Shown: in pieces, positions 2,438 to 33,591 of the stretch
Numbering within the stretch: position 1 is the first letter of the stretch
Layout of the letters: each line of letters opens with the position of its first letter
Assembly: GCF_002895485.1 (NCBI RefSeq)
Contig: NZ_AZRK01000046.1
Span: forward strand, 1-36,098
DNA: 36,098 nt
Direction of reading: 5' to 3'
Origin: Petrotoga sp. 9PWA.NaAc.5.4
GTDB taxonomy: Bacteria; Thermotogota; Thermotogae; Petrotogales; Petrotogaceae
Program-made: the position numbers and the translations under genes
Notes under the pieces: model-generated
Database searches by the model: none
What the model was told of the DNA's origin: nothing
Seen by the model: only the letters and a program-made list of their open reading frames with translations

Positions 2438-3385
2438 TTAATCTTTTTTTGAACCAATTGCTACTGCAAACACAATTACCAAACCTCTAACAACCATCTG
2501 TTGACTAACATCTAATCCTGCAATAATTAAACCATTATTAATAATTCCCATAATTAAAGAACCTACAAAAGTACCTATAATAGTACCTTTACCACCATTA
2601 AGGCTTGTTCCTCCTAGTATAACCGCCGCAATTACTGATAATTCATCACCATCTCCAAAAGTAAATCTCCCTGCTTGCATTCTAGCTGCATATAACATAC
2701 CAGCAAATCCAGCAAGAACACCAGAAATTAAAAAAGTTATTAATTTAATTTTAGATGTGTTAATTCCACTATATTTAGCTGCTTCCTCATTACCTCCGGT
2801 AGCTAAAACGTACACTCCAAGGGGAGTATGATTGAAAACAATATATCCAATTATAACTATAAATATTGTCCATATAAATATAATTGGAATGCCACCTATA
2901 TTTCCTAAACCAAAAAGATTATTGTATTTTTGATTTATTATTGGAATAGGAGCATTATGTGTAATCCACATAGCTAAACCTCTCACTACTTCCATCATTC
3001 CGAGAGTAACAAGAAATGGAGGTATTTTAAATTTAGTAGTAATTAATCCATTTGCCAACCCTACTAATAATCCTGTTCCTAATCCTACTACAGAAGCTAA
3101 TATTATTCCTAAATTACTTCTTAAAACCATTGCCGTAGTTATAGATGAGAGGGCAGTTATTGAACCTACAGATAAATCAATTTGACCAGTTGAGATTACA
3201 AATGTCATTCCAACACCCATGATAGTAATCATAGCTGTTTGACGAAAAATATTTAAAATGTTCGTTGTGGTTAAAAAACCTTTATCAAATAATAGTATAG
3301 AAAAGAAAGCGAATATTATTATGAATACAACATATACTATATTTTTTCTCCAGTCAAAATTCATTTCACGCTGTTTGGATTGCAC
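2438..3385 (-). CDS. CUT2 sugar ABC transporter permease (RbsC-like)
   Basis: Inner-membrane channel subunit of a ribose/galactose-type uptake system, BPD_transp_2 family. The 315 residues contain about eight to ten hydrophobic segments. They carry family landmarks VGMTFVISTGQIDLSVGS near the N-terminus and IAAVILGGTSLNGGKGTIIG near residues 250-270, the cytoplasmic loop that contacts the ATPase. The GTG start at 3385 has AGGAGG about nine bases upstream and overlaps the ATPase gene by 20 bases. An ATG at 3364 lacks a ribosome site, so GTG is preferred. It is the last gene of the operon that begins at 9416. The substrate is not readable; the GH35-like neighbour suggests a galactoside or its product. 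Confidence 0.92.
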   Translation of the reverse strand: MQSKQREMNFDWRKNIVYVVFIIIFAFFSILLFDKGFLTTTNILNIFRQTAMITIMGVGMTFVISTGQIDLSVGSITALSSITTAMVLRSNLGIILASVVGLGTGLLVGLANGLITTKFKIPPFLVTLGMMEVVRGLAMWITHNAPIPIINQKYNNLFGLGNIGGIPIIFIWTIFIVIIGYIVFNHTPLGVYVLATGGNEEAAKYSGINTSKIKLITFLISGVLAGFAGMLYAARMQAGRFTFGDGDELSVIAAVILGGTSLNGGKGTIIGTFVGSLIMGIINNGLIIAGLDVSQQMVVRGLVIVFAVAIGSKKD

Positions 3386-4871
3386 GTTGAAGTTCCTCCT
3401 CGTTTTCTATTTCTTCTCTTTGAAGTTCTTTTACCATTTTTCCTCTTGACATAATAATGATCCTATCACTGACAGCTAATAGTTCATTTAATTCCGACGA
3501 AATAACAATAACGCCTTTCCCTTCTTCTGCCATTTTTTTTATAATTTCTATGATTTCAAATTTTGCTCCTATATCCACTCCTATTGTAGGTTCATCCATA
3601 ATCAAAATATCCGGATCGTATATAAGCCATTTTCCAATCACCACTTTTTGCTGGTTTCCGCCGGATAAAAATCTGACTTCTTCATTTAAACTTTTTGATT
3701 TTATTTTGAGTTGTCTAATAATTCCTTTAATAGTATTTACAACTTCCTTTTCTCTAATTATAAAAAAATTACAAAATCTTTTTAGAGAAGGTAACACTGC
3801 GTTTGTTTTAATGCTCTGATTTAAGATAAGTCCTTGTGTTCTTCTATTTTCAGGTATTAAACCTATTCCATAAGTCATAGCATCTTTAGGTGACTTTATC
3901 TTAGCAATATTTCCCTTAATGATTATTTCTCCAACTTCTTTTTTCTCAATTCCAAATATCGTTTGAGCTAATTCTGTTTTTCCAGAACCAAGTAACCCAG
4001 TTATACCTAAAACTTCTCCTGGAAATAAGTTAAAGTTAACAGAAGAAAAATTATTACTGGAGCTTAAATTCTTAACTTCAAGTAATGGAGTTTTTGATTG
4101 TTTATTTAAAGCTTTCGTTCCTTCTCTTAATACTTCAATCTTTTTATTTTTACCTGTCATGTTTCTTATTATATCTTGAAGAGATGTGTCTTTAATTTCT
4201 GAAGTTAATACTTTTTTGCCATCTCTCAGAACAGTTATTCGATCACATATTTGAAATATTTCTTTCATTCTATGAGTAATGTATATAATAGAAGTACCTT
4301 TTTCCTTCAAAAGATTAATTATATTAAATAATTTTTCAGTTTCAGCTTCAGTTAAAGCAGATGTAGGTTCATCCATAATTAATATCTTAGAATTTTCTAA
4401 AATTGCTTTTGCAATTTCGACTTGTTGCATATTTCCTGTACTTAAGTCTCCAACAACACGTTCTGGCTTCAAATTTAATCCAATCTTTTCTAACACCTTC
4501 TTAGCCTCAAGCACCATTTTTCCCCGATCTATTATTCCAAATCTATTCTTAGGTTCTTTTCCTAAAAAAATGTTATAACTAATACTTAAAGTAGGAATTA
4601 AACTAAATTCTTGATAAATTATTGATATACCTCTATGTTTTGCTTCTATAGGATTACGTAATTTGACTTCTTCATTGTTAATAAATATTTTTCCACTATC
4701 AGGTAGGTAAACACCCGCTAATATCTTCATAAGAGTCGACTTACCCGCTCCATTTTCGCCAACTAAAGCATGGACTTCACCTTTTCTCATATCAAAATCA
4801 ACATTTTCTAATACTCTCACTTGATTAAACGATTTTGTAATATTAACCATTCTTAAAATTTCTTCCTTCAT
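3366..4871 (-). CDS. CUT2 sugar ABC transporter double ATPase (RbsA/MglA-like)
   Basis: Cytoplasmic ATPase of the sugar uptake system; 501 residues with two nucleotide-binding domains, the usual length. Domain 1 has Walker A GENGAGKST (38-46), signature LSTGNMQQVEIAKAI, Walker B LIMDEPTSAL and switch YITHR. Domain 2 has GLLGSGKTELA, the good signature LSGGNQQKVVIGKWL, and LIMDEPTIGVD. Domain 2 ends with VISSELNELLAVSDRI, lacking the switch histidine, which is common in the second domain of this family. The ATG at 4871 has only a weak AAGGA upstream. It overlaps the permease gene, so the two are co-transcribed. Its first domain is the closest visible relative of the degenerate ATPase domain in the kinase at 10048. 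Confidence 0.95.
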   Translation of the reverse strand: MKEEILRMVNITKSFNQVRVLENVDFDMRKGEVHALVGENGAGKSTLMKILAGVYLPDSGKIFINNEEVKLRNPIEAKHRGISIIYQEFSLIPTLSISYNIFLGKEPKNRFGIIDRGKMVLEAKKVLEKIGLNLKPERVVGDLSTGNMQQVEIAKAILENSKILIMDEPTSALTEAETEKLFNIINLLKEKGTSIIYITHRMKEIFQICDRITVLRDGKKVLTSEIKDTSLQDIIRNMTGKNKKIEVLREGTKALNKQSKTPLLEVKNLSSSNNFSSVNFNLFPGEVLGITGLLGSGKTELAQTIFGIEKKEVGEIIIKGNIAKIKSPKDAMTYGIGLIPENRRTQGLILNQSIKTNAVLPSLKRFCNFFIIREKEVVNTIKGIIRQLKIKSKSLNEEVRFLSGGNQQKVVIGKWLIYDPDILIMDEPTIGVDIGAKFEIIEIIKKMAEEGKGVIVISSELNELLAVSDRIIIMSRGKMVKELQREEIENEEELQRAIQTA

Positions 4872-4903: not shown

Positions 4904-5728
4904 TTATGTTAAATCGTGAAGTTTATATTTTTTAACTATAGATTGTAAGGGTTTGGGAAAAGGATCTACAATAATCTCTCTATTTAAGATAGCATTAAAA
5001 ATACTTTCTTCCAAACTTTGATTTTTCATTATACAATCCAAGGTAGGTTTATTCATGAAAATTCCTAAGTCACATTTCCAAAAACTCTCATCGATCCAAG
5101 ATAGCACTTTTGAATATTCTTTTCTCCAATCATTACTTATAATTTCTTGATTTACACTAGTAACAAGAGATATCTTTTTATGATCGTCAATACCTAATAT
5201 TAAACTAGTAAAGATCTTTGAGTTATCTTCAAATACACAAAAAACTATAGTTGATCCGCTTGAAACAACAAATTGAACAACCTTGAAAATCATATCATAG
5301 AGACCTTTACTCTGTAGCCCTGCTTGTTTAGAAGAAGGACCTGGATATATTATAATGTCTGGATAATATTTATCTAACAACTTATACATTTTTATAACAT
5401 ATTCATCTAAGTCCATTTCAGTTGTCCAATAACTGAATGCTTCATTATAATATTTTTCAAGAGCTAAACGATCTATCATTATCACTAAATCAGTATTTTG
5501 TTTATTTTTTTCATATATAATTTTGGTATCATATACAGGATCGATTATTTTTTGTAAATAATCTATTTCAACAGTCTTTCCTAAAGAATGTGATATATTT
5601 AATATCTTCCCCTTTTCATGAATTACAGTTATTCTTTCCTTTGATCTAATCGGTTTCAAAAACAAGGAATGTAAATTTCTCCATTGATTTATGTTTAAAT
5701 CAATTATTAAAGGATTTTTTGATAACAT
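4904..5728 (-). CDS. Protein of unknown function in the sugar operon
   Basis: A 274-residue protein I do not recognise. The ATG at 5728 has AGGAGG eight bases upstream. No signal peptide or membrane span is evident, so it is probably cytoplasmic. It mixes alpha and beta segments: DLVIMIDRLALEKYY in the first half, a PDIIIYPGPSSKQAG turn near the middle, then a hydrophobic stretch around FKVVQFVVSSGSTIVFCVFE. No catalytic signature stands out. It sits between the GH35-like enzyme and the ATPase with small gaps, so it likely serves the same sugar pathway. A sugar-modifying or regulatory role would be a guess. Confidence 0.75.
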   Translation of the reverse strand: MLSKNPLIIDLNINQWRNLHSLFLKPIRSKERITVIHEKGKILNISHSLGKTVEIDYLQKIIDPVYDTKIIYEKNKQNTDLVIMIDRLALEKYYNEAFSYWTTEMDLDEYVIKMYKLLDKYYPDIIIYPGPSSKQAGLQSKGLYDMIFKVVQFVVSSGSTIVFCVFEDNSKIFTSLILGIDDHKKISLVTSVNQEIISNDWRKEYSKVLSWIDESFWKCDLGIFMNKPTLDCIMKNQSLEESIFNAILNREIIVDPFPKPLQSIVKKYKLHDLT

Positions 5729-5769: not shown

Positions 5770-7863
5770 TCAATTAACTTTTATATCAAAAATCTTGATT
5801 GTGTAAGGTTCCAAGTTCAATCTTAATACTCCTTTGTATAACTTATATTCGATATTATCCCAAATTTCATAGCATGATATTGATTTTTCAGAAAGTATAA
5901 CCTCTGTGTCAACAGTTTCTGAACTTGGATTACATAAAAATAAAATATTTTCCCCATTAACTGATTCATATAAAATCGCGTCCACTTGTTTAGGTTTCTT
6001 GTTTATCTTATAAACATCGAGCTCTTTAAATATGTTTGAAAGATTTTTTTGTATTGTTTTTAAATCAGGAACCAAAATTATTGAGCCATTTGATCTATTA
6101 TCAAAATATTTTGTTCCAACAATTTCCATACCATTTTCTGAGCATATGTCAATTTTTTTTATTAATTCAATAAAATTTTTGAAATCATTAGAAGGAGTCA
6201 TTAATTCATTGAAAGATGGAACATTAGGTCCAATTATTAAATTTCCACCATCCTTAACATACTCAATTAACTTTCTCGTTAGTTCTTCAGATAGATATTC
6301 AAAAGTTGATATTATAACTATCTTGTATTCCTTCATTTTTGAAACGGTTAGTTCACTATCACCGATTTCAAAAGTATACCCTTCACTTGATAAATAATTA
6401 TAATACTCTTCAAACCAATGTGTTTTATTTATCTGAATGGGTTCTTTAAAATCAAATGAATTATTTGAAATATAAGAAGTATTTGGATATTCAGAAAATC
6501 CTAATATTGGATCCAAAAAATCTCCATATACAGGTATGAGGGCGGTAGCAGCTTCCAATCTATCGTAATCTCTATTTGTTAATAACATGATGTCGCACTT
6601 TTTTTCCATATTTTCTATGGGTAGCTTATTCAAAAGATCTTGAACTTTATTATGCAATTCATAAGATTTTTTATTTTTTATTCCTTCACGATTAATGGGT
6701 GAACCTAACCATTTATTTCTATCTACAATCATATACCTGTTAAAACCTTTAATACCATGCATTAATACAGCTTTTGTATCAAAAATTTCATCTTCAACAT
6801 CTCCTGGATTAATATACCAAGGCCAGACCCCTGTTATAAATTCAGGAATGAAAGGATAACGACTACATCCAGAAACATAAGAAGATATAGTTTTTACGTG
6901 ATCATAGAGTTCTTTCCTAGAATAAATATCAAAACCCACAAAATCAATTTTTTCCTCTAATTTAGGTATATTAAAAGGCGTTGAAGGAGCTCCTGTTGCC
7001 CCACCGGGACCTAATGGATGTGGATAATTATGATAAATCGGTACATCTATACCTCTATCCTTTAGCAAGTTACTCAGTATTTCAAGAGAGTGTATTAAAT
7101 AATATTCTCTATATTCAATCCAATCAAGATAATAAGGTAAGTCATTCTTAGAAGTACCTTCAAATCTAACCGGAGGAACAATTTCGTGAAAATTATTATA
7201 ATTACATTTATAAATTTTGTTTAAATTTTCGAGAGTTCCATATTTTTCATATATAAATCTTCTATACAATTCTATTGATGCGGTACTATAATCGCAAGTA
7301 TATGGATTGACATTAAAAAAATATCCTAGTTCATTATCAACTTGTACTCCAATAATATTTCCTCTTGGAAATAAATGATTCTTTAAAATTGGACAAATTG
7401 CGTCATACCATGTTTCGACTTCTTTAAAAAATTCTGGTGAAGCATAGCTTAGAGCAGGTATGGGTTTTGGAACTTGAGTGAGAATTACTTTTCCTCCAAA
7501 AGGATTTTTAGCTTGTAAATCAGGATTTTCTAATATTCTCTCTGGAAACCCAAACCAAGTCATCTCAGAATTGATTTGAGGCCCTGGACGTACCATAATG
7601 TTAAAACCTTTTTTTGAACATAAAGACAAAAATGCGTCTACATTTTTTGATCCCCCGAAGTCAAATACGTTTTCTTTGACTTCGTGAATTTCCCAGGGTA
7701 TGTAGGTAGTAATCAGATTAATTCCAAGTTTTTTTACTTCTTCCAAAATTTTTTCCCAGTTTTCTGGCCTACTTCTCCAGTAATGTACAGATCCTCCATA
7801 ATTTTTCAATGTTTTTTTTTCAATAACCATTTGTTTACCTTTTATCTCAATATTATTTTGCAT
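5770..7863 (-). CDS. GH35-like beta-galactosidase family glycoside hydrolase
   Basis: Predicted retaining glycosidase, 697 residues. The N-terminal barrel opens with GGSVHYWRSRPENWEKIL, the glycosyl hydrolase 35 entry motif, followed by the MVRPGPQINSE strand. The probable acid/base is E178 in GVQVDNELGY and the probable nucleophile is E341 in FIPEFITGVWPWY. Residues about 480-600 resemble the beta-galactosidase trimerisation-like domain (IEYVKDGGNLIIGP). A small beta domain closes the protein. No signal peptide is seen, so it likely acts in the cytoplasm on imported oligosaccharide. The reading frame extends to a GTG at 7902 inside the insertion-sequence end. The ATG at 7863 has GAGGAGGAG six bases upstream and is the better start. 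Exact specificity is unresolved (GH35 versus GH42-like). Confidence 0.88.
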   Translation of the reverse strand: MQNNIEIKGKQMVIEKKTLKNYGGSVHYWRSRPENWEKILEEVKKLGINLITTYIPWEIHEVKENVFDFGGSKNVDAFLSLCSKKGFNIMVRPGPQINSEMTWFGFPERILENPDLQAKNPFGGKVILTQVPKPIPALSYASPEFFKEVETWYDAICPILKNHLFPRGNIIGVQVDNELGYFFNVNPYTCDYSTASIELYRRFIYEKYGTLENLNKIYKCNYNNFHEIVPPVRFEGTSKNDLPYYLDWIEYREYYLIHSLEILSNLLKDRGIDVPIYHNYPHPLGPGGATGAPSTPFNIPKLEEKIDFVGFDIYSRKELYDHVKTISSYVSGCSRYPFIPEFITGVWPWYINPGDVEDEIFDTKAVLMHGIKGFNRYMIVDRNKWLGSPINREGIKNKKSYELHNKVQDLLNKLPIENMEKKCDIMLLTNRDYDRLEAATALIPVYGDFLDPILGFSEYPNTSYISNNSFDFKEPIQINKTHWFEEYYNYLSSEGYTFEIGDSELTVSKMKEYKIVIISTFEYLSEELTRKLIEYVKDGGNLIIGPNVPSFNELMTPSNDFKNFIELIKKIDICSENGMEIVGTKYFDNRSNGSIILVPDLKTIQKNLSNIFKELDVYKINKKPKQVDAILYESVNGENILFLCNPSSETVDTEVILSEKSISCYEIWDNIEYKLYKGVLRLNLEPYTIKIFDIKVN

Positions 7864-7899
7864 TTGATACTCCTCCTCATGTAATATAGTTACTTTACT

Positions 7900-8265
7900 C
7901 ACTTTAGAAATTCTAAAACGAACAATTTAACGTATGTTTAATCCTTCCTGTTGTTGACATTTACCTCCTTACGATATAATCTCTTTGACATTATTAATTC
8001 ACTAAATCGTAAGGAGGTTTTACAAATGTCTTACTACTCTAATGCTTCTTATCTTTACTTCAATTTTGGTTGATCTGCCGTTCACAATTATAATCATAAA
8101 CTTTTGAAGGTATAATACTAGAAAATTGATCTGTTTTCTTAAAACTAATTCTCACTTTGCTCCAGCAATTATTTCTGTTCCATATAATAACTATACACAT
8201 TCTTAAGTAAATTTTTCTATCTTTAAAAAAATTTGACACTTCTTATTTGTTTGAGATTATTTGTT
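7900..8265 (+). mobile_element. Insertion sequence remnant, copy 2 (inside the sugar operon)
   Basis: The left inverted end CACTTTAGAAAT (7900-7911) and the following ~140 bases match copy 1 closely, including the promoter, the 13-base inverted repeat and the transposase start. The coding part is reduced to MSYYSNASYLYFNFG at 8026-8073 followed by a stop. Scattered similarity to copy 1 (actagaaaattgatctg, tttgacacttcttatttg) continues to about 8265. No right end is visible. It lies antiparallel within a 452-base gap between the binding-protein and GH35-like genes, so it may affect expression of the downstream sugar genes. Confidence 0.78.
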
Positions 8266-8315: not shown

Positions 8316-9416
8316 TTATTTATAATATTGTTTCAATATAGATGGAGCTTCTTCATGATATACTAATTTCCAACTTTCTAATAAATTACTTCTTGTAACT
8401 TTTACAGCAGGTAAAGCATAATAACTAGAGGAAACTTCCTTACCAAGCAATGCATACCCTGCTAAAATAGCTTCAGCTACACCTTGATCATAGGGTAATT
8501 GTGCTCCTAAACCTTTTATCATGCCTCCTTGAGCTATATTAAGGGCAACATTCAATCCTAAATCAATAGTAGTTATTACTAAATTTTTTATATTACTATA
8601 TCTAGCTGCAGCTAAAACACCTTCTGCAGGAACATCCCAATTTACCCATACACCATCTATCTTTGGATACCTTGTAAACATAGCCGAAGCTACTCTTTCA
8701 GCTTCATAAGGTTCAACAAAGCCTCCTTTCGACACTATTTCTATATTAGGATAATTTTCCCTTATTGTTTTTTCGAAAGCTTCAGCCCTTTGATTTGTAA
8801 CAAAATAATCTGCATCATGATAGATCATTCCTATAGTACCTTTACCATTTAACTCTTCAGCCATAATTTCAGCAGATACTACACCATTTCCATAGTTATC
8901 TGCTGAAACGACTGCAACATAATCTTTTCCTGGTACTAAATTATAAGGAACATTATCCATAAAAACTATTTTTATGCCTGCATCTGCAGCTTTTCTAAAT
9001 GCTGGAGCTGAAGAAATTGGATCAACTGGTATACTCACTAATACGTCGGGTTTCATGGCTATAATAGTTTCAATATCAGAAATCTGCTTTTCGGGCTTAA
9101 ACTGAGCATCGGTTACTGCTAAGATCTTGATCCCCATTTTTTCAAAGGTGTCTCTTAAAGCTTTCAATTGAGCTGCTGACCAATCATCACCAGAATAGTG
9201 AAAAGAGATTGCCGCTGTAAAATTACCTTCTTTTAACTTTTCGATTTCTGAATCGGTAAGTATAAGTTCCTTCGCAGATGTAGCCTTTTCCCCTCTAGGT
9301 CCACTACTCATAACTGGTAAATCTGGAATATCTGGATTGATAGTTATAACACCATATACAAAAATGCTTAAAAAACAAATTACACAGAGAATAATCCCTT
9401 TTAAAAGCTGTTTCAT
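8316..9416 (-). CDS. CUT2 ABC transporter sugar-binding protein (Peripla_BP_4)
   Basis: Extracytoplasmic solute receptor, 366 residues from the ATG at 9416. A positively charged start and a hydrophobic stretch (LLKGIILCVICFLSIFVYG) form a signal peptide or N-terminal anchor. No lipobox cysteine is placed convincingly. The mature part follows the two-lobed ribose-binding fold: AAISFHYSGDDWSAAQL, then KPDVLVSIPVDPISSAPAFR, VFMDNVPYNL, GTIGMIYHDADYF and DGVWVNWDVPAEGVLAAA. A GTG three bases upstream of the ATG is too close to the AAGGAGGAG site. This is the first gene of the operon. Its upstream 440 bases contain a promoter and terminator. Transporter architecture is clear; ligand unknown. Confidence 0.92.
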   Translation of the reverse strand: MKQLLKGIILCVICFLSIFVYGVITINPDIPDLPVMSSGPRGEKATSAKELILTDSEIEKLKEGNFTAAISFHYSGDDWSAAQLKALRDTFEKMGIKILAVTDAQFKPEKQISDIETIIAMKPDVLVSIPVDPISSAPAFRKAADAGIKIVFMDNVPYNLVPGKDYVAVVSADNYGNGVVSAEIMAEELNGKGTIGMIYHDADYFVTNQRAEAFEKTIRENYPNIEIVSKGGFVEPYEAERVASAMFTRYPKIDGVWVNWDVPAEGVLAAARYSNIKNLVITTIDLGLNVALNIAQGGMIKGLGAQLPYDQGVAEAILAGYALLGKEVSSSYYALPAVKVTRSNLLESWKLVYHEEAPSILKQYYK

Positions 9417-9749
9417 CACAAACTCCTCCTTATAAAATAGTTTTAAGTAACTTTAAACTTCTATCATACACGGTCTTTCTTGTTTTTTACATAATTCATT
9501 CAAGATATATATTTTTTATTACAAAACAATTTATCAACAACTTATTAATATATTTAATGTTAATATTTTTAATTTTCTTGTTGGTATTTCATTTTTATAT
9601 ATTTAAAATTTTATATTTTTTACTGTTCTTAATATAATAGATTAATTTTATTCCTTCTTTAAAATATTCTATTAATAGGATTTTTGATCTTTATATTTGC
9701 GATTTTCTCTAAACAATATTAAAATAATAATGATTATAAAATAAACGGC

Positions 9750-9855
9750 TAAAAAGTAAAAATGCCTTACATCAACTTTTCAGTTGTTGTAAGGCATTCA
9801 TGACCTTATATGTTTAAGCTTATCTTCCATAGATAAACTCTTATTCCTCTTACTG
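9750..9855 (-). ncRNA. Short structured leader or small RNA, candidate ANTAR-controlled attenuator
   Basis: A predicted ~105-nt transcript runs from the promoter at 9861-9889 to the terminator at 9751-9798, toward the sugar operon. It can form a first hairpin (GTTTATCT pairing AGATAAGC, loop ATGGA). A second short hairpin, TAAGG pairing CCTTA, uses bases belonging to the 5' arm of the terminator and so is mutually exclusive with it. This hairpin, antiterminator, terminator order is what ANTAR proteins such as EutV act on, and an ANTAR gene lies next door. The loops do not match the published hexaloop rule (A at 1, G at 4) cleanly. A 10-codon frame (MEDKLKHIRS) is also present. It could instead be an independent small RNA. 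Confidence 0.45.
9751..9798 (-). terminator. Rho-independent terminator facing the sugar operon
   Basis: AATGCCTTACA (9761-9771) pairs with TGTAAGGCATT (9788-9798). An inner CAACT-GAAA-AGTTG forms after one mismatch, closing with a GAAA tetraloop. Read on the minus strand the hairpin is followed by TTTTTACTTTTT. No gene ends just upstream on that strand, so it terminates a short leader rather than a coding transcript. Confidence 0.75.
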
Positions 9856-9860
9856 GTAAT

Positions 9861-9889
9861 AATATAACACAATGTCATCATAAATTCAA
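9861..9889 (-). promoter_or_regulatory. Promoter for the sugar-operon leader
   Basis: On the minus strand TTGAAT (9884-9889), a 17-base spacer, and TATATT (9861-9866). Predicted transcription start is near 9855. The match to a sigma-70-type promoter is good at both boxes and in spacing. Confidence 0.5.
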
Positions 9890-10047: not shown

Positions 10048-11934
10048 ATGGAAACAATAAACTCTTTCTCTTCAGAGTTCATTAAAGATGAACAACAAAA
10101 AGAACTTATTTTGGAAGTTCATAGAGGTGAAGTTCATGTGGTTATTTTTTTAAATTCGCCAGAGAGAAAAATCTTCAATGATTTTTTAAAAAAGGGTGAA
10201 AAAGGGAAAATATTTTTTGAAAATAAAATTATTAACCTTGAACCATATTTTGCTCTTAATAAAAAAGTGGGTATTTTATTAGATGAAACTTATCTATTAG
10301 AAAATCTAACAATTGCTGAAAATCTGCTTATTGTAACTTTAAATAATACTAACAAAAAAAGTTTTTTTAATCTTAAACCCTTTTTAAGAAAAAAACATAT
10401 TGAAATGAAGAGTAAAAAAATGCTTAAAAATTATGAGATTGATTTAGATCCTCATAAAAAAGTATCAGATATTTCTTTAGAAGAAAAAAGGCTCCTTATG
10501 ATAACAAAAATATTTTTCCTTAAACCTGAAATAGTAGTATTATTTGAGCCTACTACTCATTTGAGTTTAGATTCTATAAAGCTAGTAGATTCTATGATTA
10601 AAAATCATAAAAATATGGGCAAGGGTATTTTGTATATCACTAGAAGTTGGGAAGAAGCATTGAGGATTGGCGATAAAATATCTGTGATTATTAATGGGGA
10701 GTTGGAACATACATTTGAATCTTCAGTTATAAGAAATAATCCTAAAATACTTTTACAGTATATTGTTGGAACTGATAATAGTAATAAGGATTTGTATCTA
10801 TTTCCTAATTATCAAGAAGACAATCAACTGATTGATTCTGTCTTTGAAGCTACAGAATACTTGACTTCAGAATATGAATTAAATGATATCTTAAATTTTT
10901 TGGCAGAAAATACTGCAAAAGCAACAAGAGCAGATGCATGTGAAATATCTTTAATTGATGAAGAAACTTCTACCATAATAGATAAATCTATTTATAAAAA
11001 TAGTGAAACTATTGAATTTATTCCTAATGAAGCTGAAATATTAAAATTAATTGATGAGGAAAAGGTTTATTATTTTACGAAAAGAGATAAAGGCTTTGAA
11101 AGATTTTTTAAACTAACTAACGATATTTGTAGTCTAATTTGCGTTCCATTTTATATAAGATCACGATTAGGTGGAATTATTCAAATTTATTATAAAGATT
11201 ATCATTTGTATACTGAAGAAGAAATAAAGTATTTAGAAACAATCGCTCATCAAACTGCTTTGGCTATTCATAACACCAAATTAATGGGGAATTCAGTCTT
11301 ATTAAAAGAAAGCCATCATAGAATAAAGAATAATTTACAATCAATCATTAGCTTAATGTCGATATATAAAATGTCTTTTGAAAAAAACTCTCAAAAAGAA
11401 GTAAGTGAAATGCTTGATGATCTAATTTCCAAAATTAAAAGTATAGCAGCTGTTCATGATTTGCTATCGAAGGATAAGTTGGGAAGAAGTATTATTAATT
11501 TAAATGAAATGATAATTCAGATTATAAAATTTATGAGACGAACTAAAGATAAAATTGAGTTTGAATATGATTTAGATAATATTTTTGTTTCATACAGCAA
11601 AGCTTCGGCTATTGCGCTTGTGGTAAATGAAATTGTAACTAATAGTTTAAAGTACGCTTTTCTTGAAAAAGATAAAGGGAAAATTTCGATTATTTGTAAG
11701 CAAAGCAACGAAAGCATAAGCATAGAAGTCTCAGACAACGGTAAAGGGTTTCCAAAAAATTTTCAGATTACAAAAAATAAGGGGATAGGACTATCAATTG
11801 TATATTCAATAGTCACCAAACAATTAGGCGGAAAAATAAGAACAGAAAATGATCATGGAGCTAAAGTTTACATAGAGATACCTTTTAAACAAGATAAAGC
11901 AACTATTTTTGAAGAAACAATCGAAAAAGTTTGA
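10048..11934 (+). CDS. Soluble histidine kinase with degenerate RbsA-like ATPase domain, GAF and HisKA_2 domains
   Basis: A 628-residue cytoplasmic sensor kinase without membrane spans. Residues ~15-245 align by eye with the first domain of the ATPase at 3366-4871 but have lost the catalytic parts. The Walker A position reads FLNSPERKIFNDFL, the Q-loop is DETYLLENLTI, the signature is SDISLEEKRLL, Walker B is IVVLFEPTTHLS, and the switch region is YITRSWEEALRIGDKI. Residues ~265-412 form a GAF domain (RADACEISLIDE; LGGIIQIYYKD; AHQTALAIHN). ESHHRIKNNLQSI at 421-433 is the HisKA_2 phospho-acceptor motif. The ATPase core has N528 (VNEIVTNSLKYAF), DNGKGF and GIGLSIV. GAGGG lies upstream of the start. 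Its partner is the ANTAR regulator 19 bases downstream. The ruined domain may dock on the CUT2 permease or bind nucleotide without hydrolysis (inference). Confidence 0.88.
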   Translation: METINSFSSEFIKDEQQKELILEVHRGEVHVVIFLNSPERKIFNDFLKKGEKGKIFFENKIINLEPYFALNKKVGILLDETYLLENLTIAENLLIVTLNNTNKKSFFNLKPFLRKKHIEMKSKKMLKNYEIDLDPHKKVSDISLEEKRLLMITKIFFLKPEIVVLFEPTTHLSLDSIKLVDSMIKNHKNMGKGILYITRSWEEALRIGDKISVIINGELEHTFESSVIRNNPKILLQYIVGTDNSNKDLYLFPNYQEDNQLIDSVFEATEYLTSEYELNDILNFLAENTAKATRADACEISLIDEETSTIIDKSIYKNSETIEFIPNEAEILKLIDEEKVYYFTKRDKGFERFFKLTNDICSLICVPFYIRSRLGGIIQIYYKDYHLYTEEEIKYLETIAHQTALAIHNTKLMGNSVLLKESHHRIKNNLQSIISLMSIYKMSFEKNSQKEVSEMLDDLISKIKSIAAVHDLLSKDKLGRSIINLNEMIIQIIKFMRRTKDKIEFEYDLDNIFVSYSKASAIALVVNEIVTNSLKYAFLEKDKGKISIICKQSNESISIEVSDNGKGFPKNFQITKNKGIGLSIVYSIVTKQLGGKIRTENDHGAKVYIEIPFKQDKATIFEETIEKV

Positions 11935-11953
11935 AAATATTGGGGGTTATTTC

Positions 11954-12541
11954 ATGAAAGAATTAAAAATAGTAATAGCTGAAGATGAGACCCTTATACT
12001 AATGGGACTAAAAAGTAATTTAGAAAGTTTAGGTCATAAAGTCGTTGGGGAAGCATCAAATGGCAAGGAACTAATTGATATTGTTTTAGAGCGAAAACCT
12101 GACTTAATAATTGCTGACATTAATTTACCAATATTAGGTGGACTAGAAGCATTAGAAATAATAAATCAAAAGATGGATGTACCTTCTTTAATTGTAAGTG
12201 GATACGATGATGAAGAATTAATTCAAAGAGCCACAGAAATTGGAGTTTTGGGATATCTTATAAAACCTATAGACGAATCAGACTTAAAAGCTGCAATAGA
12301 AATTGTAATTTCAAGATTTGAGGATATTAAGAAATTGAAAGAAGAACTTGATGAAACCAAAGAAGCTTTAGAATCTCGAAAAATAATGGAAAGGGCGAAA
12401 GGAATAGTTATGGAACGATTGCAATTAAAAGAAGATGAAGCAATGAGATTCTTACAGAAAAAAAGCAGAAATTCAAATAAAAAGTTAGTAGAAGTTGCAA
12501 ATGAAATTATTGAGGCTGATAAGGCTTTTAGATTGGAATAA
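11954..12541 (+). CDS. ANTAR-domain response regulator (EutV/AmiR-like antiterminator)
   Basis: A 195-residue two-domain regulator. The receiver has acidic pocket E10-D11, phospho-acceptor D55 in LIIADINLPILGG, and the conserved lysine in GYLIKPI. A coiled-coil linker (about 115-135) precedes a C-terminal ANTAR domain: MERAKGIVMERLQLKEDEAM, then the SRNSNKKLVEVANEII helices, with the aromatic position partly replaced. ANTAR proteins bind paired RNA hairpins and prevent transcription termination when phosphorylated. The ATG at 11954 (GGGGGT site) is preferred over an upstream start at 11909 inside the kinase gene. HisKA_2 kinases and ANTAR regulators are a known pairing, as in EutW/EutV. The likely target is the leader at 9750-9855. 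Confidence 0.92.
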   Translation: MKELKIVIAEDETLILMGLKSNLESLGHKVVGEASNGKELIDIVLERKPDLIIADINLPILGGLEALEIINQKMDVPSLIVSGYDDEELIQRATEIGVLGYLIKPIDESDLKAAIEIVISRFEDIKKLKEELDETKEALESRKIMERAKGIVMERLQLKEDEAMRFLQKKSRNSNKKLVEVANEIIEADKAFRLE

Positions 12542-15650: not shown

Positions 15651-15685
15651 TTTTAACACCTCCTAATAAAGATTCACTTTGTACT

Positions 15686-15887
15686 TACTTTAGAAATTCC
15701 AAAACTTAAGTTTTGCCCATTTTTTGGTTTTAAATTTATTCAAAAACTCCTCATCACTTCTAATCCTCATTAACTATGAATTTCTTTAACCTTTTCGATA
15801 CTTTTACCGAGGAAGAGGTGAGGGCTCTGCCCTGGACCTGTCATAAATTCAAATGCTTATTTTCTGAAAATTTTCCATTCCAAAGTC
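15686..15887. repeat. MITE-like element, single copy
   Basis: About 202 bases between TACTTTAGAAAT (15686-15697) and ATTCCAAAGTC (15877-15887). These ends resemble those of the insertion sequence at 1217-2399. The core contains the shared motif ctctgccctggacc, matching the GGGCTCCGCCCTGGACC core of the tandem array at 19545-20052. It has no coding capacity. Its last ~31 bases overlap the 3' end of the neighbouring phosphorylase gene, and its other end lies 36 bases upstream of the binding-protein start. Confidence 0.7.
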
Positions 15888-19470: not shown

Positions 19471-19673
19471 CACTTTAAAAATTCTAAAAAGCTTTTTTAT
19501 GTATATTTTATCGTTTAACTCTTTATAAAATACCTCTTATAACTCTAATCCTTACTAACTATGAATCCATTTAACTTCTTTGCTCCGTGTAGCGAAAGAG
19601 AGAGGGAGGGCTCCGCCCGGGACCCGTTTTAAATTCAAATACTTATTTTTAGAAAATTATCATTTCTAAAGTC
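19471..19673. repeat. MITE-like element, first unit of the array
   Basis: CACTTTAAAAAT (19471-19482) and ATTTCTAAAGTC (19662-19673) bound 203 bases, the same size and layout as the copies at 15686 and 33263. The inner part contains TGTAGCGAAAG and GGGCTCCGCCCGGGACC. The outer end is 34 bases upstream of the era start. Confidence 0.7.
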
Positions 19674-20052
19674 CTTATCTAATCCTTACTAACTATGAAT
19701 CCATTTAACTTCTTTGCTACGTGTAGCTAAAAGGGGGATAGGGCTCCGCCCTGGACCCATTATAAATTCGAATACTTATTTTCAGAAAATTCTCATTTCT
19801 AAAGTCCTTATCTAATTCTTACTAACTATGAATTCTTTAACTTCTTCGCTACGTGTAGCTAAAAGGAGAGAAGAGGGCTCCGCCCTGAACTCACTTTAAA
19901 TTCAAAAGCCTATTTTTAAAAAATTATCATTTCTAAAGTCCTTATCTAATCCTTACTAACTATGAAACCCTTTAACTTTTTCGCTACGTGTAGCGAAAGA
20001 GAGGGGAGGGCTCCGCCCTGGACCTATTATAAATTCGAATACTTATTTTATT
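19545..20052. repeat. Tandem ~134-bp repeat array, 3.8 units
   Basis: Units begin at 19545, 19679, 19812 and 19946 with CTAATCCTTACTAACTATGA or near variants; spacings are 134, 133 and 134. The fourth unit ends early near 20052. Three of the units carry GCTACGTGTAGC (first unit: GCTCCGTGTAGC), which in the last unit extends to a TTTCGCTAC / GTAGCGAAA hairpin. Each unit also has a GGGCTCCGCCC hairpin, and the first three keep the TTTCTAAAGTCC end. The array is non-coding and fills most of the era-his gap. Confidence 0.85.
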
Positions 20053-20368: not shown

Positions 20369-20430
20369 AAGAACTCATACAAGGCGAATTATAACCGGTC
20401 ACGTTTAACTCGTGACCGGTTTTTTATTTT
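20319..20430 (+). promoter_or_regulatory. Histidine operon attenuator
   Basis: Arm 1 ATACCTGGCGTG (20319-20330) pairs arm 2 CATGCCAAGTAT (20343-20354) with one mismatch and one G-U. Arm 2 can instead pair arm 3 (GCCAAGTATG 20346-20355 with CATACAAGGC 20376-20385). The terminator is AACCGGTCACG (20393-20403) with CGTGACCGGTT (20411-20421) followed by a T-rich run. CGTGGCCG (20327-20334) in the leader codons can also pair CGGTCACG (20396-20403) of the terminator, a possible direct antiterminator. Stalling at the His codons would cover arm 1. Which pairing actually blocks termination is not resolved, because the arm 2-3 helix does not overlap the terminator stem. Confidence 0.72.
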
Positions 20431-20439
20431 TAATAAAAA

Positions 20440-20499
20440 TAAGCTTTGAATTTAAAGCTAAAAAATTGGCAAAGTTTAAGTTTTAAAATTTCTAAAGTG
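20440..20499. repeat. Repeat-element end fragment between attenuator and hisZ
   Basis: The segment ending in ATTTCTAAAGTG (20488-20499) matches the reverse complement of the outer end of the 15686 element (shared aatttaaa, ggcaaa, tttaagtttt blocks). It places the repeat terminus 36 bases before the hisZ start, downstream of the attenuator. Confidence 0.6.
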
Positions 20500-20534: not shown

Positions 20535-21320
20535 ATGAAAAAAAACATTTTTGCTGAATCTAAAAATATTTCGAATATTGTAAATTTAATGAGAGACAGC
20601 TTAATAAAAAACGGGTTTTATGAGCTTTTTCCTTCTTCTATAACTAAATATTCTCAAAATTTAAAAAAAGGATTAAAATTTTCTGATGGAAAAAATTTTT
20701 ATCTTATAAAACCGGATGTTACTTCCTGGCTTATAGAAATGGACAAAGTTGAAGGGAAGGAAAAATTGTTCTATGTTGATGAAGTACTCGATGAAAATTT
20801 GAATAGTACCTGGCAATTAGGTTTTGAAATTTTAAACGGTGAAGAGTTAGAAATAGAAAAAGAACTTTTGAAACTTACTATAGATCTTCTTTCACAAATT
20901 GGTATTAAAAATTTTTATATTGATATTAGCTCCATGAAAGTTTGGCAAAATATCTTAAATATGGTTCCCGATTTTAAAGAAGATATTTTAAAAGCAATTG
21001 AACTTAGAAATTTTGAAATTGTTGAAAATCTTCAAATAGATCAAAAAATAAAAAATTACATAGAAGAACTTTTTAATTATAGAGGGAAAAAAACTAACAT
21101 AGAAAAATTAAGAAAAATAATGGATGATGTTAAAGATGAAAGAATATTTGTAGATCTGGGTACGATAAAATATATGGACTACTATGAAGAAGTAGTTTTT
21201 GAAGTATATTCACCTGATAATGGATATCTTTTAGGCAACGGCGGGCAATATAGAATCAACGATAAATATTCTTGTGGAATAGCTTTTAATATCGATGTAT
21301 TAAAGGAGATGAAGAAATGA
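20535..21320 (+). CDS. hisZ: ATP phosphoribosyltransferase regulatory subunit HisZ
   Basis: Catalytically inactive relative of histidyl-tRNA synthetase that forms a complex with short-form HisG and confers histidine feedback on the first pathway step. At 261 residues it is much shorter than the ~390 of many HisZ proteins. The synthetase-like core is seen as IVNLMRDSLIKNGFYELFPS, the motif-2-like YLIKPDVTSWLIEM, and the C-terminal GYLLGNGGQYRIND and SCGIAFNID. Synthetase catalytic residues are not evident. GGGAGG lies upstream of the ATG. The stop overlaps the hisG start (ATGA). The assignment rests on the fold pattern plus the obligatory pairing with the 204-residue HisG that follows. Confidence 0.85.
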   Translation: MKKNIFAESKNISNIVNLMRDSLIKNGFYELFPSSITKYSQNLKKGLKFSDGKNFYLIKPDVTSWLIEMDKVEGKEKLFYVDEVLDENLNSTWQLGFEILNGEELEIEKELLKLTIDLLSQIGIKNFYIDISSMKVWQNILNMVPDFKEDILKAIELRNFEIVENLQIDQKIKNYIEELFNYRGKKTNIEKLRKIMDDVKDERIFVDLGTIKYMDYYEEVVFEVYSPDNGYLLGNGGQYRINDKYSCGIAFNIDVLKEMKK

Positions 21321-33228: not shown

Positions 33229-33262
33229 AATTTTTTTACCTCCTTTTTATATTATTTTTACT

Positions 33263-33461
33263 CACTTTAGAAATTCCAAAATCCTTATTATATATGTTTT
33301 AGAACTGATTTTTTTACAAAATACTTCCTCAATTCTAATCTTTACTAATTCTTAATTTTTTAACCTTTTCGGTACTTGTATTGAAGGAGAAGGAAGGACT
33401 CTGCCCTGGACCCACTTTAAATCAAATGCTTATTCTCCGAAAAATTATCATTTTTTAAATC
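33263..33461. repeat. MITE-like element, single copy (33.3 kb)
   Basis: CACTTTAGAAAT (33263-33274) opens a ~199-base element ending at a decayed right end near 33448-33461. The core ctctgccctggaccc matches the 15.7-kb copy. It fills most of the 363-base gap between the cyclase and symporter genes; the remaining bases to 33591 show nothing recognisable. Confidence 0.65.
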
Positions 33462-33591
33462 CCCGAGAACTTTATTAATGTTTTAACAAAATTATTTTCC
33501 TATTTTTATGCCCTTCCCCATGCTCCATAACTATTTCCTTTTAGTGCGAGTCTATTAACTTTGCATTTATTAGTTATTTTATAAAAGTTTA

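Follow-up and report, generated by a model that had tools for sequence, protein, structure and literature searches.

The sensor kinase encoded at positions 10,048 to 11,934 of the window (the whole stretch of DNA analysed, 36,098 nucleotides of Petrotoga sp. 9PWA.NaAc.5.4 contig NZ_AZRK01000046.1) begins with a relative of a sugar transporter ATPase, and its gene stands next to a CUT2 sugar transport operon. This raises the question of what such a domain does in front of a kinase, and whether the kinase controls the operon beside it. The kinase and its partner lie on the plus strand, divergent from the operon on the minus strand:

10048..11934, plus strand: sensor kinase gene, 628 aa, in the order pseudo-ABC nucleotide-binding domain (NBD), GAF, HisKA_2, HATPase_c (profile searches, alignment, AlphaFold2 model)
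10048..10806, plus strand: pseudo-ATPase domain like CUT2 sugar ATPase domain 1 (profiles, alignment, Foldseek, DNA comparison)
10876..11271, plus strand: GAF domain, residues 277-408 (GAF_2 match)
11308..11532, plus strand: HisKA_2 dimerization and phosphoacceptor domain, ESHHRIKNN (52.7 bits; alignment)
11605..11889, plus strand: HATPase_c domain (56 bits)
11954..12541, plus strand: REC-ANTAR response regulator (REC 88.1 bits, ANTAR 72.3 bits)
8316..9419, minus strand: CUT2 substrate-binding protein (Peripla_BP_4; Pfam/NCBIfam)
5770..7902, minus strand: GH35/GLMA-like glycoside hydrolase, in the operon (Pfam/NCBIfam)
4904..5728, minus strand: operon protein without a Pfam or NCBIfam match, both searched
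3366..4871, minus strand: RbsA-like CUT2 ATPase with two domains (profiles, alignment)
2438..3385, minus strand: CUT2 permease (BPD_transp_2; Pfam/NCBIfam)

The kinase and its ATPase-like domain

The original prediction described an N-terminus like domain 1 of RbsA-type ATPases, followed by GAF, HisKA_2 and HATPase domains, an ANTAR response regulator as partner and a divergent CUT2 operon, and all of these were recovered. Residues 20-253 of the kinase matched NCBIfam AraG (6.4e-21) over profile positions 26-252, which is domain 1; the N-terminus also matched AlsA (2.3e-20) and Pfam ABC_tran (28.4 bits, cut-off 25). Structure prediction, which had been proposed as a check of the fold, gave an AlphaFold2 model with a mean pLDDT of 69.5 (76-92 in the C-terminal half of the ABC domain). 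Foldseek assigned its N-terminus to ABC NBDs, e.g. LptB (TM by target length about 0.7), and found the remainder to resemble HisKA_2-type kinases, of which the protein has both the phosphoacceptor His (in ESHHRIKNN) and the HATPase_c domain. Residues 1 to about 250 are an ABC nucleotide-binding domain, nearest to domain 1 of the CUT2 sugar ATPases. Fold and sequence family are those of RbsA, AraG and XylG domain 1; unlike these, the kinase domain is single, fused to a kinase and devoid of the hydrolysis residues.

It had further been claimed that the ATPase motifs, including the catalytic Glu context, were replaced. Alignment confirmed this for Walker A, the Q-loop, the signature and the switch His of the window kinase. 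The catalytic Glu is kept (LFEP, E167), and the Walker B Asp is lost instead. The Walker B Asp is changed (to F, Y, H, Q or N) in every one of the 23 aligned kinases, as are the switch His (to K, N or R) and the signature (usually to L-x-x-E-E/N-K-K/R); the catalytic Glu is present in 22. These three losses are family-wide. The P-loop is intact (GxxGxGKTT) in three relatives (L091, L092 and L096, Halanaerobiales/Halothermothrix), partial in the other Thermotogota, and fully gone in the window copy and the Bacillaceae. ATP hydrolysis by the ABC domain is unlikely anywhere in the family because Walker B Asp, switch His and signature are replaced throughout, and nucleotide binding seems possible in some relatives. 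An ABC fold and similarity without the functional motifs imply that the window domain is a pseudo-ATPase and not a transporter ATPase. In ABC importers the stretch after the Q-loop lies near the permease. This stretch (residues 91-140 of the ATPase) retains the largest share of the CUT2 pattern, 0.64 versus 0.32-0.35 for the Q-loop and Walker A in a comparison with an uneven alignment and a modest signal; as the part best kept in comparison with working ATPases it may be a modest hint of permease contact.

Besides the regulator, no ANTAR protein was found in the genome. The start of the regulator is most likely the ATG at 11954; a TTG at 11909 is disfavoured because relatives measure 195 aa. 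In the operon, an inverted repeat (ACCTCCTTACGAT...ATCGTAAGGAGGT, about 7963-8018) with Shine-Dalgarno-like arms lies between the binding-protein and glycosidase genes.

Leader RNA of the CUT2 operon

The decisive part of the case, absent from the original prediction, is the RNA leader of the operon (9840-9751, minus strand). It contains two hairpins, the second (P2) mutually exclusive with a strong terminator:

9861..9889, minus strand: promoter-like TTGAAT-17-TATATT with TG before the second hexamer, directly upstream of P1 (consensus scan, weak)
9816..9840, minus strand: P1 hairpin, 9 bp, loop UAUGGAA (folding, covariation, covariance model)
9790..9808, minus strand: P2 hairpin UAAGGU[CAUGAAU]GCCUUA, antiterminator half (folding, covariance model)
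9751..9798, minus strand: intrinsic terminator AAUGCCUUACA...UGUAAGGCAUU, stem 9798-9761 plus U-rich tail (folding)

Folding yielded P1 and P2 when the 3' arm of the terminator was left out, and P1 with the terminator (-22.7 kcal/mol, z -8.5) when the arm was present. A simple terminator scan missed this structure because its stem is bulged. The promoter consensus scan returned 8 matches where 6.5 were expected. An Rfam search of the window gave no family at the leader.

The order P1, P2, terminator was also found in the other leaders examined. A strict rule for this layout, formulated after the motif had been seen, was obeyed by 19 of 22 leaders, where dinucleotide shuffles gave an expectation of 0.06; no reverse strand obeyed it. 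The P1 pairs were formed in 100%, with two-sided changes in 4/5. Across the leader alignment 96% of the cells were paired and six pairs showed two-sided changes; the covariation score was 0.355 versus 0.213 for shuffled alignments (reached by 0/500 shuffles), and slid versions scored at most 0.163. The leader, with these compensatory changes, is an antiterminator of the ANTAR type. With the EutV/EutW type it shares two tandem hairpins, the second exclusive with the terminator, and a loop G at position 4. Unlike that type, whose published loop rule (6 nt, A at 1, G at 4) the leaders do not follow, their loops are mostly of 7 nt with A at 2, and of 6 nt in two Halanaerobiales leaders. A2, G4 and R5 belonged to the search rule; a U-G closing pair (20/23) and a final U in the seven-nt P1 loops (20/21) did not. 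At L094, L098, L099 and L102 an extra P1-like hairpin lies upstream, making three in tandem with P2.

Distribution of the kinase and the leader

Because a degenerate pattern with two mismatches performed at background level (17 matches versus 16 in the control), only exact matches and a covariance model were used for finding further leaders. The P2 site is the genome's single exact match to the family pattern. The model, R1, was built from 18 leaders with those of the window and L026 held out, and it recovered the window leader (E 2.5e-4). In 103 Thermotogota genomes it found 14 sites, distributed over 11 genomes: the nine with this kinase, and G028 and G033, in which the contig ends near the operon. 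Downstream of 13 of the 14 sites lies a CUT2-type operon. Three sister-family genomes have two sites, about 8.8 kb apart, the second lying at L085 4243 in G027, L090 10105 in G025 and L089 3217 in G029. In G025 and G027 this second site stands in front of another operon, which has DhaK-like genes and CUT2 components, and both operons may be under the control of a single ANTAR protein; in G029 the stretch retrieved after the site contained no CUT2 gene. A pattern match in G037 (L087) was rejected, its genes being unrelated, and those in G038, G039, G041 and G053 were not R1 matches.

The kinase was found at 25 loci, nine in Thermotogota, counting that of the window, and 16 outside this phylum, a lower bound from a search of relatives and GTDB species genomes with two short peptide patterns. 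The other hosts are Bacillaceae (Bacillus, Fredinandcohnia, Halalkalibacter, Evansella, Gracilibacillus, Compostibacillus), Halanaerobium, Halothermothrix, Orenia, Halanaerobiales/Bacillota MAGs and one Fusobacteriales MAG. No full-length relative was found in the plasmid collection, and L107 (Rhodothermus) was rejected as an ordinary ABC protein. The ANTAR regulator adjoins the kinase at all 25 loci. Homologues had been predicted to occur beside CUT2 operons, and at 23/23 loci with enough flank, related to each other and not independent, they do; at L095, on a contig edge, just the CUT2 permease is visible, and at L096 and L101 the contig ends first. This is the genetic linkage of kinase and transporter expected of Bce-type systems. 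In G008 a frameshift, either a sequencing error or recent decay, splits the kinase gene within the ABC domain (L025 9276-11148); leader and operon are intact.

Comparison within the genus provided the reciprocal case. A 9.35-kb block of G003 (L026 893-10245), consisting of the CUT2 operon, the leader and the ABC domain of the kinase, is missing in G009 with both flanks kept. Its counterpart there is L030 6481-6657, with the break at the ABC/GAF junction; the GAF-kinase and the ANTAR gene are kept, and model R1 finds no leader site. The pseudo-ATPase module of the window ends where its homology to G009 starts (10807). The kinase of G012 is a shorter remnant, and G018 has the ANTAR gene alone, near a contig end; both lack a leader site, the ABC domain and an adjoining CUT2 operon. 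Operon, leader RNA and ABC domain are thus jointly absent in three genomes. Between the window and L026 the ABC domain is 30% and the GAF domain 92% identical at the protein level, which indicates that the ABC part was exchanged or evolved very fast. The window GAF region (about 10800-11280) has 91-98% DNA identity to G009 over most of its length, and the kinase core about 70%, so the gene looks like a mosaic with signs of recombination.

By architecture and RNA layout, the module is an ANTAR antitermination system. As in EutV/EutW and other systems of this kind, a kinase is combined with a REC-ANTAR regulator, and in these the phosphorylated regulator dimerizes, binds the hairpins and gives read-through (PMC3369931, PMC8934654). 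Kinase, ANTAR partner and leader very probably form an antitermination module dedicated to CUT2 transport. Control of the adjoining operon by antitermination, which the original prediction had put forward, is strongly supported by the leader RNA, the 23/23 testable neighbourhoods and the joint absence.

What the kinase may sense

In the mechanism that we favour, the phosphorylated ANTAR regulator would dimerize and bind P1/P2, and RNA polymerase would read into the CUT2 operon. The hydrolysis-dead ABC domain would imitate a transporter part, docking on the permease of the CUT2 system or pairing with its ATPase. Kinase activity would then follow the presence or state of the transporter and not one particular sugar, and the GAF domain may supply a second signal. 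This explanation as a whole, antitermination together with docking or pairing, is considered somewhat probable. For the domain itself, the best explanation is a pseudo-ATPase that would dock and so report transporter state, and it has about an even chance of being right. The original prediction had likewise proposed docking on the permease, or sensing of nucleotide or of the transporter state; this has indirect support from the joint absence of ABC domain, leader and operon and from the use of one kinase with different CUT2 operons. Slightly below this we place the proposal of a sensor class in which the kinase would dock like an ATPase, read the transporter state and tune the operon by RNA antitermination.

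The nature of the signal is narrowed by three loci, L027, L028 and L029, in which response regulator, kinase and leader have about 90% DNA identity up to the terminator. Beyond it the CUT2 operons differ at all three loci, and their substrate-binding proteins are 20-30% identical. The GAF domains in front of these operons are 96-97% identical. Since a nearly unchanged kinase serves different operons, the GAF domain is unlikely to track one sugar through a single ligand, and a better fit would be either a property that CUT2 transporters share or a general carbon signal. A match of the ABC domain to the CUT2 type was not supported: L027 and L028 have nearly identical ABC domains and different operons, and between L028 and the window, whose operons are of one type, the ABC domains are 33% identical.

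The general signal is the basis of a second explanation, in which the same antitermination module operates, the ABC domain is a nucleotide or energy sensor or a dimerization scaffold, the GAF domain responds to a metabolite that signals general carbon status and the transporter is merely the target. The well-conserved GAF domain agrees with this, as does its service to operons with unrelated binding proteins, and the P-loop retained in some relatives would allow nucleotide sensing. However, the loss of the P-loop in the window and the Bacillaceae implies that such sensing is not general. A transporter feature is favoured over a carbon signal because the input domain is derived from a CUT2 ATPase and is absent together with the operon, which a general sensor leaves unexplained. 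We regard this second explanation as unlikely.

Loss of the catalytic motifs with retention of the fold would also suit a kinase that also, or mainly, acts back: its pseudo-NBD would occupy the permease or pair with the ATPase and inhibit transport, and free kinase would drive synthesis until the docking sites are filled, a form of homeostatic counting. A precedent is KdpD, which according to PMC11018627 controls its own pump at both the transcriptional and the post-translational level. Sequence does not reveal in which direction the signal runs, however, and this version appears quite improbable. A chance fusion or decaying gene without a transporter-specific role could account for the high divergence of the window ABC domain (28% identity to outsiders), the frameshift in G008 and the absence of the domain from three genomes, but is contradicted by the architecture in several phyla, the constant CUT2 and ANTAR neighbours and the conserved leader RNA, and is hardly credible.

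The favoured mechanism, reading of the transporter through a docked pseudo-ATPase, has relatives, and by analogy the module may work like the transporter-sensing systems of the Bce type, MalK-MalT and KdpD. In MalK-MalT a transporter ATPase reports transport to gene expression. MalK is a working ATPase that sequesters a DNA-binding activator, whereas the domain joined to the present kinase is a dead paralogue. The sensor part of mycobacterial PdtaS is GAF-PAS, and it is not known to have an ABC domain or a transporter partner. PdtaS/PdtaR is likewise a cytosolic HisKA_2 kinase with an ANTAR regulator (PMC5676007). In BceS-BceAB and other transporter-sensing kinases kinase activity is tied to an ABC transporter under control of the same system (PMC10314905). 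In the Bce type a membrane kinase binds the real transporter, whereas the kinase described here appears soluble, contains an ATPase-like domain and has an RNA-binding output. It differs from EutV/EutW systems in its pseudo-ABC sensor domain, and from the emphasis of the published ANTAR survey on nitrogen metabolism in that the module would control CUT2 sugar uptake.

No description of a kinase with a fused ABC domain and an ANTAR partner was found in the open-licence literature. ANTAR antitermination itself is already known; the system would be categorically new if docking were proved. One domain architecture would connect the field of ANTAR antitermination with that of transporter-sensing two-component systems. 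Its recurrence in several phyla suggests that an imitation of a transporter part can tell the cell what state the transporter is in. Any CUT2 operon behind the leader would then come under control without a new sugar sensor. ANTAR targets would extend to sugar uptake, with a distinct loop that would tend to escape motif searches of the published kind (6-nt, A1/G4). Natural controls are provided by the genomes in which operon, RNA and domain are jointly absent and by the species with one regulator and leader for three transporters.

Elsewhere in the window, the ORF at 1443-1967 resembles a transposase fragment, judged by reading its sequence. A sub-threshold match to Rfam Termite-leu (20390-20462, 25.9 bits, cut-off 51) lies upstream of the gene at 20535. 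A 134-bp tandem repeat is present in 3.8 copies at 19544-20049, with related single copies at 33230-33463, at 15679-15887 and in G009.
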